Positions 54,253 to 57,549 of a stretch of 64,000 nt of DNA are shown one piece after another. Within the stretch, counting starts at the first letter, position 1; the number at the start of each line of letters is the position of its first letter. The stretch is from assembly GCF_024298825.1 (NCBI RefSeq), contig NZ_CP101153.1, positions 2,728,001 through 2,792,000 of the forward strand. The letters are read 5' to 3'. A program made the position numbers and the translations under genes. Source of the stretch: Haloglomus salinum (GTDB taxonomy: Archaea > Halobacteriota > Halobacteria > Halobacteriales > Haloarculaceae). The notes beneath the pieces were generated by a model. The model was given only the letters and a program-made list of their open reading frames with translations, was not told where the DNA came from and searched no databases.

Positions 54253-54260
54253 CATTTATA
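54253..54260 (+). promoter_or_regulatory. TATA box of the metal cassette
   Basis: catttata is 24-31 bp before ATG 54284 (the mini-ORF), consistent with a leaderless transcript beginning there. It directly abuts the operator-like palindrome. Confidence 0.65.
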
Positions 54261-54278
54261 GATTAGACTAATCTAATC
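54261..54278. promoter_or_regulatory. DtxR/MntR-type operator-like palindrome
   Basis: GATTAGACTAATCTAATC has perfect 7-bp arms (GATTAGA and TCTAATC) around a 4-bp centre. It resembles the TTAGGyTArsCTAACCTAA class of DtxR operators (TTAG...CTAA). It occupies the gap between TATA box and start, where a bound regulator would block the polymerase. A DtxR-type gene is at the end of this cassette. Confidence 0.6.
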
Positions 54279-54283
54279 CTGGT

Positions 54284-54331
54284 ATGCACACCGCCGAACT
54301 TTCGGCAACGCAGTGGAGGGATCGACCGTGA
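54284..54331 (+). CDS. Leaderless upstream mini-ORF coupled to the multicopper oxidase
   Basis: Fifteen codons (MHTAELSATQWRDRP) from ATG 54284 to TGA 54329-54331. The TGA overlaps the GTG start of the oxidase gene (GTGA). The TATA box lies about 27 bp upstream, so the mini-ORF would be the first thing translated from the transcript. It may couple translation or act as a regulatory leader. No similarity is recognised. Confidence 0.45.
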   Translation: MHTAELSATQWRDRP

Positions 54332-55587
54332 GCCCCTCGCTGGACTACGAGCGGGCACGTGAGTACACCGAGGCCCTCGAGGGGCGACTCGTCGACGCGC
54401 TCGACGGGGACGCCGGCGTCAGCCGCCGGGCGGTTCTCGGGAGTCTCGGGCTGGCTGGCAGCGCCGCGCTGATGGGTACCGGCGGCGCCGACGACGGGCA
54501 CGACGGCGGCGGCGAGGAACACGGCAACTTCGGCGCCCGCGGGGAGTTCGACGAGGGCGAACTCGACCCGCACGAGTTCCTCCGGACGTTCAACACCGGC
54601 TTCGACGGCCAGGACAACCTCACGCAGGACGTCTTCGAGGAGGACGGCGAGCGGATCCGCTACTTCGAGATGACGGCCACCGACACGACCATCGAGGTCG
54701 CGCCGGGCGTCGAGTTCTCGGCGTGGGCCTACCAGGGACAGGTCCCCGGCCCCACGCTCCGCGTGACCGAGGGCGACCGCATCCGGGTGAAGTTCACCAA
54801 CGGGAGCCGGCACGCTCACACCATCCACCCGCACCTGAAGAACCTCAACCCGAAGATGGACGGCATCCCGCAGAACGGGCCCGGCGTGCTCGAGCAGGGG
54901 GAGTCGTTCACCTACGAGTGGAAGGCACAGCCGGCCGGCGTCCACTTCTATCACTGCCACTCCCTGCCGCTGAAGGCCCACATCCACCGCGGCCTGTACG
55001 GGAGCATCATCGTCGACCCGGACCCCGAACGGGTCCGCGAGAAGCCCGAGGAGTACTGTGACTTCCACGAGTCACAGGTCACGCCCGAGCTGACCGAGGA
55101 GCTCGTCGCCCGCGCGAAGTCGCGCAACCACGAGTACGACGAGAACGACGAGGTCCAGGAGCTCGTGATGATAATGAACGGGTTCGACACGAACTTCGAC
55201 GGCGGCAACGAGGTGTACGCCGCCAACACCCGCGCGTTCGCCTACGGCGTCGGCGAAACCGACGGGAAGGGTAACTGGAAGCCCGGCGAGACGAAGCGCC
55301 CAATCCAGATTGACGGGCAGAAACCCGTCCGGGTGTACCTGGTCAACGCCATCGAGTTCGACCTCATCAACTCGTTCCACACCCACTCGCAGTTCTTCGA
55401 CTACTACGACCACGGGACGACGCTGCTCCCGACCCACCAGACGGTGGACACCATCATGCAGTGTCAGGCACAGCGCGGCATCATCGAACTGGACTACTCC
55501 GACCACGAGCCGGGACTGTACATGTTCCACGCGCACCAGTCGGAGTTCGCAGAGCTGGGCTGGATGAGCTTCTTCGAGGTGGTCTGA
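54328..55587 (+). CDS. Tat-exported multicopper oxidase/cupredoxin protein
   Basis: 419-residue exported copper protein of the multicopper-oxidase superfamily with two cupredoxin domains. A Tat signal sits in an unusual position: GVSRRAVLGSLGLAGSAALM with Arg33-Arg34 after a 30-residue N-terminal lead. Copper ligands are visible: HTIHPH (164-169), HFYHCH with Cys210, NSFHTHSQFF, and the C-terminal MFHAHQSEFAELGWM. Members oxidise metals, phenolics or nitrite; the substrate is unproven here. The start is GTG 54328, overlapping a mini-ORF stop. It is first in a three-gene set with a ZIP transporter and a DtxR-type regulator. Confidence 0.85.
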   Translation: MSPSLDYERAREYTEALEGRLVDALDGDAGVSRRAVLGSLGLAGSAALMGTGGADDGHDGGGEEHGNFGARGEFDEGELDPHEFLRTFNTGFDGQDNLTQDVFEEDGERIRYFEMTATDTTIEVAPGVEFSAWAYQGQVPGPTLRVTEGDRIRVKFTNGSRHAHTIHPHLKNLNPKMDGIPQNGPGVLEQGESFTYEWKAQPAGVHFYHCHSLPLKAHIHRGLYGSIIVDPDPERVREKPEEYCDFHESQVTPELTEELVARAKSRNHEYDENDEVQELVMIMNGFDTNFDGGNEVYAANTRAFAYGVGETDGKGNWKPGETKRPIQIDGQKPVRVYLVNAIEFDLINSFHTHSQFFDYYDHGTTLLPTHQTVDTIMQCQAQRGIIELDYSDHEPGLYMFHAHQSEFAELGWMSFFEVV

Positions 55588-55589
55588 AT

Positions 55590-56822
55590 ATGGACGACAC
55601 TGATACGGAACGACGGTCCGACGGCGGCGTGACGGTGCAGGAACAGCCCTTCGGCCTCCCGCGATGGGTGGTCGCCATCGTCCCGCTCGTGTTGCTGGCC
55701 GCGGTGCTGGCGTACCTGTTCTTCGGGTCGCCGTTCGCCGCGCTCGCGACTGGCGGGAGCGCGCTTCCCGACGTGACCGTCTCCTACACGACGCTGCCGA
55801 ACGAGGAGACGGTCCTCGTGCACGTGACCAACAACGGACCACGCACGGTGACCGTCGAGCAGGTGCTCGTCGACGAGGCGTACTGGTCGTTCCAGATGAG
55901 TGGCGGGGACCGAACCCTTGAGCCACTCGAGAGTTCGACCATCAGTATCCCGTACCACTGGGAGCCCGGCTGGGACCTGAACGTCGCGATGGTCCTGTCC
56001 GACGGCGCGGTCATCCACCACACCATCGTCGCGCCAGCGATGAGTCCGGGTGTGACCGGTGAGATAATCGGGACGCTGGCGGTCGTCGGCCTGTTCGTCG
56101 GCGTCATCCCGGTCGTGCTGGGGATGCTGTGGCTGCCGTACCTGCGCTCGGTGTCCGACCGCGCGCTCCACGCCGTCCTCGTGTTCGCGGTCGGTGTGCT
56201 CGCCTTCCTCGGCTTCGACGCGCTGGTCGACGTCGAGGAGTTCATGGAGTCGGTTCCGGGCGGGTACGAGGGGCCCTTCCTCTTCGCGCTCGGCGTGGCC
56301 GGCTCCGTGCTGGTCATCCAGGGCATCAGCGCCTGGCAGGAGTCCCGGACCGAGGGCGAGACAAGCCGGCTCCGAACGGCGTATCTGGTGGCGGTCTCCA
56401 TCGGGTTGCACAACCTCGCGGAGGGGCTGGCCATCGGGACCGCGTTCGCGCTGGGTCGTGTCGAACTCGGCGCGTTCCTCGTGGTCGGGTTCCTCGTCCA
56501 CAACGTGACCGAGGGGCCCGCCATCGTCGGCCCGCTCGCGCGGGGTCGTCGCCCCGGCATCGAGCACTTCGCCGCGCTCGGGCTCATCGGTGGCGCGCCG
56601 GTCATCGTGGGTGCGTGGATCGGGAGCTACGCGTTCTCCCCCACGCTCGGCGTGTTCTTCCTCGCCATCGGGCTGGGCGCCATCCTCCAGGTAGTCTGGG
56701 AGATGGCCGACCTCGTCCGGGGTGACGACTCGCTCGCCAGTATCGGGACGCCCGTCAACGCGGGGGCGTTCCTGTTCGGCGCCGTGTTCATGTACGTGAC
56801 CGGGCTCTTCATCGCACTCTAG
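55590..56822 (+). CDS. ZIP family divalent-metal transporter with exported N-terminal domain
   Basis: 410-residue ZIP transporter. Metal-site helices are recognised by SIGLHNLAEGLAIGTAF (His274) and LVHNVTEGPAIVGPL (His304), with about eight helices after residue 150. Unlike a normal ZIP, the first about 130 residues form a membrane anchor (about 25-45) and an extracytoplasmic beta-rich domain (about 55-130: VLVHVTNNGPRTVTVEQVLV, TISIPYHWEPGW, VIHHTIVAP). ZIP proteins move Zn2+, Mn2+ or Fe2+ into the cytosol. It starts at ATG 55590, 2 bp after the oxidase stop. Confidence 0.88.
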   Translation: MDDTDTERRSDGGVTVQEQPFGLPRWVVAIVPLVLLAAVLAYLFFGSPFAALATGGSALPDVTVSYTTLPNEETVLVHVTNNGPRTVTVEQVLVDEAYWSFQMSGGDRTLEPLESSTISIPYHWEPGWDLNVAMVLSDGAVIHHTIVAPAMSPGVTGEIIGTLAVVGLFVGVIPVVLGMLWLPYLRSVSDRALHAVLVFAVGVLAFLGFDALVDVEEFMESVPGGYEGPFLFALGVAGSVLVIQGISAWQESRTEGETSRLRTAYLVAVSIGLHNLAEGLAIGTAFALGRVELGAFLVVGFLVHNVTEGPAIVGPLARGRRPGIEHFAALGLIGGAPVIVGAWIGSYAFSPTLGVFFLAIGLGAILQVVWEMADLVRGDDSLASIGTPVNAGAFLFGAVFMYVTGLFIAL

Positions 56823-56868
56823 TGAGGGACAAGGTTCTATGCACGTCGGCCGGAAACGTGAGCCAACG

Positions 56869-57549
56869 ATGCTGAGCGCCGTCATGGAGGACTACATCAA
56901 GGCCATCTACGCCATCGGCGGCGACGGCGAGGAGCGGGTCTCCACGTCCGAACTCGCCGACTACCTCGATGTGACCTCCCCCACCGTCTCCTCGATGGTG
57001 AAGAAGCTGGAGGAGCGCGGGCTGGTCGACCGCGAGGAGTACAAGGGCGTCACGCTGACCGAGGAGGGCGAACTGGTGGCGCTGGAGATTCTCCGGCACC
57101 ACCGGCTGCTGGAGGCGTTCCTCACCGAGCAGCTGGACTACGACTGGGCCGACGTCCACGACGAGGCCGACCGCCTCGAACACCACGTCTCCGACGAGCT
57201 GACCGACCGCATCGCGGAGGCGCTGGGCAACCCACCGGTCGACCCGCACGGCGACCCGATTCCGGACGCGGACCTCTCGCTCCCGGACGCCGGCGAGACC
57301 ACCCGACTGGCGGAGGCCGGCGAGGGCGAGCGCGTCGTCGTCCGGCGCATCCGCCACCAGGGTGACGAGGAACTGCGCTACCTCGCCGATGCGGGTATCC
57401 GCCCGGATATCGAGGTTCGAGTCATCGACGTGGCGCCGTTCGGGATGGTGACCGTCGAGACGCCCGGCGGCGAGCAGAGCCTGCCGGAGGAGATCGCCCG
57501 GCTCATCGAGGTCGTCCCGGCCGCCGAGGCGGACGGGGTCGAGGCCTGA
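56869..57549 (+). CDS. DtxR/MntR-family metal-dependent transcriptional regulator
   Basis: 226-residue metal-sensing repressor. The N-terminal winged helix (VSTSELADYLDVTSPTVSSM, VKKLEERGLV) is followed by the dimerisation/metal domain and a C-terminal FeoA/SH3-like domain (about 145-215). Metal-site residues: Asp8 in VMEDYIKAIY, His78 and Glu82 in RHHRLLEAF, and His97, Asp101, Glu104, His105 in VHDEADRLEHH. Carboxylates at positions 8 and 101 replace the Met and Cys of iron-sensing DtxR/IdeR and match the Mn2+-sensing MntR pattern. An in-frame ATG at 56839 would add ten residues; 56869 gives the conserved start. It is 46 bp behind the ZIP gene. Confidence 0.9.
   Translation: MLSAVMEDYIKAIYAIGGDGEERVSTSELADYLDVTSPTVSSMVKKLEERGLVDREEYKGVTLTEEGELVALEILRHHRLLEAFLTEQLDYDWADVHDEADRLEHHVSDELTDRIAEALGNPPVDPHGDPIPDADLSLPDAGETTRLAEAGEGERVVVRRIRHQGDEELRYLADAGIRPDIEVRVIDVAPFGMVTVETPGGEQSLPEEIARLIEVVPAAEADGVEA

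Follow-up and report, generated by a model that had tools for sequence, protein, structure and literature searches.

Leaderless small open reading frames (ORFs) coupled to the gene that follows have been described in mycobacteria, where they begin with a leaderless RTG, run for 5-50 codons and are fused to the next gene by RTGA (Shell et al. 2015, PMC4633059). Their peptides are free to vary while the leaderless start and the coupling are kept, and delivery of ribosomes has been proposed as their role (PMC4633059). In Mycobacterium tuberculosis, PPE2 is likewise preceded by a short landing-pad ORF, uPPE2, with an AUGA overlap, and downstream expression depends on the upstream ORF via termination-reinitiation (PMC11260477). 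Haloarchaeal ribosomes have been studied at overlapping gene pairs of Haloferax volcanii, which show the same kinds of contact as the locus described here, namely ATGA/GTGA and TGATG overlaps with a Shine-Dalgarno (SD) motif inside the upstream gene (PMC6728339, PMC10666635). Termination-reinitiation coupling was strict at 9/9 such pairs, and an SD motif was not essential for reinitiation, usually helpful and variable in its effect (PMC6728339); an overlap of -4 nt is commonest, overlaps of more than 8 nt are rare, and coupling is abolished at gaps of about 20 nt (PMC10666635). At the 5'-UTRs of this species SD motifs do not drive initiation (PMC3986360; also PMC6728339), and 72% of its transcripts are leaderless (PMC4983044). 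Because the SD is inactive at 5'-UTRs and coupling is strict, a first gene that bears an SD motif behind a leader of 26-118 nt is hard to account for unless ribosomes are brought to it.

Such a gene is the multicopper oxidase that opens a metal cassette in the window, by which we mean the whole 64,000-nt stretch of DNA analysed. The host genome is haloarchaeal (4.19 Mb), and its nearest named relative is Haloglomus halophilum, with an oxidase 96% identical. The cassette runs from the oxidase through a ZIP/ZupT-like transporter to a DtxR/MntR-family regulator, with hisD upstream and divergent (Table 1). The first-pass annotation of this DNA had placed an ATG at 54284 about 27 bp behind the TATA box, at the head of a 15-codon frame whose TGA overlaps the oxidase GTG, and this is exact in the sequence: ATG 54284-54286 lies 29 nt from where the TATA box begins (about 26.5 nt from its centre), and TGA 54329-54331 shares bases with GTG 54328-54330. 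It had also made conservation of the overlap in close relatives a check on its reading; the overlap is not lost, and both congeners (L125 and L126) have the ATG, a frame of 15 codons and the GTGA.

Table 1. Features of the promoter, mini-ORF and metal cassette, in window coordinates.
Feature	Position	Strand	Remarks
TATA box TTTATA	54255..54260	+	29 nt before ATG 54284; 27-33 nt in relatives
Operator-like palindrome TTAGACTAATCTAA, DtxR/MntR type	54263..54276	.	adjoins the TATA box on its 3' side
Mini-ORF MHTAELSATQWRDRP, 15 sense codons and TGA	54284..54331	+	position and coupling kept in relatives
SD-like motif GGAGGGATC within the mini-ORF	54315..54323	+	GGAGG ends 8 nt before GTG
GTGA, oxidase start overlapping mini-ORF stop (4-nt overlap)	54328..54331	+	shared with L125 and L126
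Multicopper oxidase, twin-arginine-like signal; opens the cassette as its first full gene	54328..55587	+	Pfam Cu-oxidase_3 and Cu-oxidase_2; PDB 7rab, E 4e-107
ZIP/ZupT-like metal transporter	55590..56822	+	start 2 nt past oxidase stop
DtxR/MntR-family regulator with FeoA domain	56839..57549	+	start 56839 or 56869

The mini-ORF lies in a different frame from the oxidase and therefore is not an N-terminal extension of it. The assignment of the oxidase start to GTG 54328 is supported by the closest relative, L125 (96% identical), and by RefSeq annotation of plasmid orthologues, in which the start is at the corresponding codon and the mini-ORF is left unannotated. We rejected an alternative in-frame start at GTG 54313: L125 has an in-frame stop just ahead of the GTG equivalent to 54328, which excludes any start further upstream there. 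From the TATA spacing we infer a leaderless transcript starting at or next to 54284. A scan for bacterial-type promoters gave no match, as expected for an archaeon. The sequence TTAGACNNNTCTAA has a single exact occurrence in the 4.19 Mb genome, at the palindrome site (54263-54276), and relatives have similar palindromic sites beside TATA. Haloglomus has one copy of the palindrome directly after TATA; Halorubrum-type relatives (L041 type) have two in tandem, the second in contact with the upstream side of the TATA box. Among relatives the DtxR-family gene shifts position, being upstream, downstream or not found, and in the window its start is ambiguous between ATG 56839 and ATG 56869 (MLSAVMEDY), the latter typical for the family. 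The cassette is frequently located on plasmids, and many plasmid copies (L169, L170, L173, L174, L175) have a gene of the plastocyanin/azurin family next after the ZIP gene.

We consider it very probable that the mini-ORF is a landing pad, on which ribosomes load leaderlessly before passing by termination-reinitiation to the oxidase and then to the ZIP gene, and which stands in for a co-transcribed upstream gene. The 5' end of the cassette mRNA would coincide with ATG 54284 or lie a few bases from it, and ribosomes would then load leaderlessly on the mini-ORF. Its 15 codons would be translated, their amino-acid content being irrelevant, and the TGA would leave ribosomes resting on the oxidase GTG, where they would reinitiate, the SD inside the mini-ORF helping to hold them there. 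The same hand-over would be repeated at the ZIP start. Contact between oxidase stop and ZIP start is present in nearly all loci, so the oxidase-ZIP pair would depend on one leaderless ATG. A leaderless mini-ORF followed by termination-reinitiation was also the proposal of the first-pass annotation, whose reading as a whole finds partial support here; this part of it is well backed by conservation and by published haloarchaeal experiments on other gene pairs. The transcription start, the translation of the mini-ORF and the reinitiation are steps that we infer from sequence.

To place the window among its relatives we looked for oxidase loci in genome contigs and in searches across the family, the order and the class, and reduced the 119 loci obtained to 81 distinct ones. 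The position of an upstream stop codon is that of its final base, counted from the oxidase start codon (first base 0), which puts GTGA at +3 and TGATG at 0. At 18/81 distinct loci (class D) the oxidase follows dtxR, whose stop ends at -4 to +3. The remaining 63 (class M) lack a directly joined dtxR; the gene is downstream, not found in the stretch examined, or ends at least about 90 nt upstream with an intervening promoter. A start codon at the leaderless position with a stop at the oxidase start is present at 61/63 class M loci (59 ATG, 2 GTG), and when class M leaders are grouped at 60% identity into 27 leader types the mini-ORF stop falls at -5 to +12 in 26 of them, both counts being made with starts picked when the stop was already known. 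These 26 types divide into 4-nt overlaps (6), 1-nt overlaps (2), stops just before the start (5), a stop at +7 (1) and 13-nt overlaps (12). Mini-ORF length ranges from 9 to 38 codons over the leader types, and the sequences are unrelated between most of them. The two class M loci lacking a mini-ORF, L105 and L106, lack an SD motif as well (computed for L105: -1.9 kcal/mol) and carry TATA about 40 nt ahead of the oxidase ATG, as would be expected after a switch to near-leaderless initiation. On the oxidase tree classes D and M are interleaved, and its well-supported branches require no fewer than 4 changes between them. A co-transcribed dtxR appears to play the mini-ORF's part in other lineages, its stop falling in the same place. 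Comparison by eye showed no likeness of the mini-ORF to the 3' end of dtxR, of which it might have been a remnant. The L124 oxidase, matched at residues 3-256 only and on a very long branch, probably has a disrupted or fused reading frame.

A stricter test, in which shuffled leaders had equal freedom in choosing starts, demanded a TATA-like hexamer (at least 5/6) followed at 27-32 nt by an ATG, with the stop between -6 and +12. It was passed by 17/27 leader types, compared with 0.42 in dinucleotide shuffles of the same leaders; the nominal P of about 2e-26 is not literal, since leader types share ancestry and independence is overstated. With the stop limited to -6 to +3, 11 types passed as against 0.24 in shuffles. 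Under the triplet control ATG scored 17, the next-best triplet 8 and the median triplet 2. The TATA match is weak (<5/6) in several leader types. The effect is very large despite common descent, and the arrangement is not due to chance. We also wrote down a prediction before inspecting new loci, and 7/8 distinct new loci fit it, provided that weak TATA matches are allowed. The eight comprise two of class D, five with a mini-ORF (one with a GTG start; three with weak TATA) and one misfit, L185, whose only frame starts with GTG and ends 8 nt before the oxidase, beyond the stated limit. For a base rate we scanned 864 kb of genome (802 genes by a crude gene finder) for a perfect TATA hexamer, an ATG 27-32 nt on and a 4-nt or 1-nt overlap. 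This strict pattern occurs at 2/802 genes, with a mean of 0.15 for other triplets in place of ATG; a loose TATA definition gave 4 for ATG versus a mean of 2.4 for other triplets and had no power, so the strict version was used. The architecture is rare in the genome and not a general haloarchaeal leader, bearing in mind that many genuine promoters, too, are passed over by so strict a definition of TATA. The second gene with the strict pattern lies in L148 on the minus strand (gene start 17667 on the reverse complement); it has TATA, a leaderless 22-codon mini-ORF (MNTVRCWRPLAPIERKSSITLR) and a GTGA overlap, and its product, named by eye from the N-terminus, looks TnpB-type.

These numbers bear on an explanation that we regard as improbable, in which the mini-ORF is a coincidental start-site ATG and the oxidase initiates alone via the SD in a short 5'-UTR. 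The SD is a good one and well placed before the GTG: its duplex with the 16S 3' end reaches -10.8 kcal/mol in the window versus -6.7 in shuffles, the anti-SD GGCTGGATCACCTCCT is found in the genome, and any one start-like triplet close to a promoter start would be unremarkable by itself. SD motifs are, however, reported inactive at Haloferax 5'-UTRs (PMC3986360, PMC6728339), and coincidence does not account for the excess of leader types passing the strict test or for dtxR stop codons that occupy the same position in other loci. The frame is also mostly kept across leader lengths of 26 to 80 nt. Over the full range of 26 to 118 nt one frame is common to 10/14 distinct lengths, a retention that is partly a property of the oxidase, since its early codons give a backstop in that frame (ATGA, or TAG in ATAGAT).

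About equally improbable is a regulatory leader peptide or attenuator, whose translation or stalling would sense a metal or an amino acid and tune the cassette. The location at the head of a metal cassette would suit such a device, and similar-looking peptides occur within the Halorubrum-type cluster (MGIRRLDQRRRSCHR). The peptide itself argues otherwise. The largest cluster holds 26 distinct sequences with 35-nt leaders and a 13-nt overlap; the ATG is present in 26/26, there are no indels, and the SD is near-invariant with an invariant core at -9 to -6, while the mini-ORF frame has a substitution ratio of about 1.0. Codon statistics gave no sign of purifying selection on the peptide. Among three Haloglomus genomes, differences in the mini-ORF fall on all codon positions and those in the oxidase almost only on third positions. 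No residue pattern common to the leader types was found in the peptides, which contain 21% Arg, 7% Asp+Glu, 3% His and 3% Cys; typical haloarchaeal proteins are acidic, unlike these peptides. The leader RNA has no unusual structure (fold z -0.18), and an Rfam search of the leader matched no family. It appears that the act of translation is kept and the product is not. Comparison of the loci brings out a conserved start, frame and stop position, an unconstrained peptide and an alternation with dtxR. The suggestion that the mini-ORF could be a translational control element for the cassette finds only half support, in what looks like constitutive ribosome delivery, with the oxidase and ZIP starts linked by contact; regulation mediated by the peptide is not supported, with the peptide free to vary, no unusual structure in the leader and no Rfam match. 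The regulation that is visible is transcriptional, with a DtxR/MntR-type palindrome at TATA and a DtxR-family gene in the operon, and metal control would more plausibly act through that palindrome.

Slightly less probable still is an inhibitory uORF, in which the mini-ORF occupies the leader and lowers oxidase expression, most of all in lineages with a 13-nt overlap, where its stop lies beyond the oxidase start. Where the stop begins 10 nt after the first base of the oxidase start codon, the geometry is suboptimal for reinitiation, judging by Haloferax overlap frequencies. Against this, the 4- or 1-nt overlaps that are most prone to coupling recur in 8 leader types, including that of the window, and the near-invariant SD of the largest cluster accompanies a 13-nt overlap. 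In many relatives with the 13-nt overlap the stop is supplied by oxidase codons anyway. Coupling at this overlap, found in nearly half of the leader types and not favoured in Haloferax, is less certain than at the 4-nt overlap of the window. That the mini-ORF encodes a small functional protein is hardly credible, for all its open frame and a start placed for leaderless translation, given a substitution ratio of about 1, congener differences on all codon positions, an Arg-rich composition, and lengths of 9-38 codons with unrelated sequences.

Returning to the landing pad, we lean slightly towards a broader proposal: haloarchaea may use dedicated mini-ORFs, selected for translation and not for product, as 5' pads that turn leaderless initiation into SD-assisted reinitiation. 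Mini-ORF and regulator gene would be interchangeable upstream partners of the oxidase, swapped several times during evolution, with the result that an oxidase start is almost always in contact with a stop. This suggests why a haloarchaeal first gene can bear a strong SD motif though such motifs are reportedly inactive at 5'-UTRs. It also carries a warning that haloarchaeal leaders of 25-120 nt may be translated, and it would offer a compact natural substrate for studying reinitiation by a leaderless-loaded ribosome. In the open literature searched, leaderless coupled mini-ORFs did not turn up for any archaeon, which is no proof of absence.

The nearest known systems include two kinds of upstream ORF. 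E. coli uORFs with a 5'-terminal uAUG likewise place an AUG at the very beginning of an mRNA, ahead of a gene with an SD, but their effects are variable, and the accessible part of the source describes no conserved stop/start coupling (PMC4965119). The uORFs of long Haloferax volcanii 5'-UTRs, of 15-31 codons, also lie upstream of haloarchaeal genes; they were sought in leaders of 150-250 nt and have low isoelectric points, and coupling is not described in the portion of that report available (PMC4983044). The uPPE2 ORF sits in a riboswitch-controlled leader (PMC11260477), whereas no structured RNA was found here. The Haloferax reinitiation pairs correspond in their -4 nt overlap, present in the window, and in an SD inside the upstream ORF, but in them an ordinary gene comes first, whereas the present loci have in its place a mini-ORF (9-38 codons) without protein constraint, situated where the transcript is predicted to begin. 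The mycobacterial class agrees in several features: the window has 15 codons, within the range of 5-50, its GTGA is an RTGA, and the architecture is conserved without the peptide. That class is bacterial, whereas the present case is archaeal, concerns one operon over many genera, uses several stop/start geometries and has dtxR as a substitute in other lineages. If our reading is correct, archaea have in this mini-ORF a natural equivalent of the leaderless coupled small ORFs of mycobacteria, kept at one operon in many genera.
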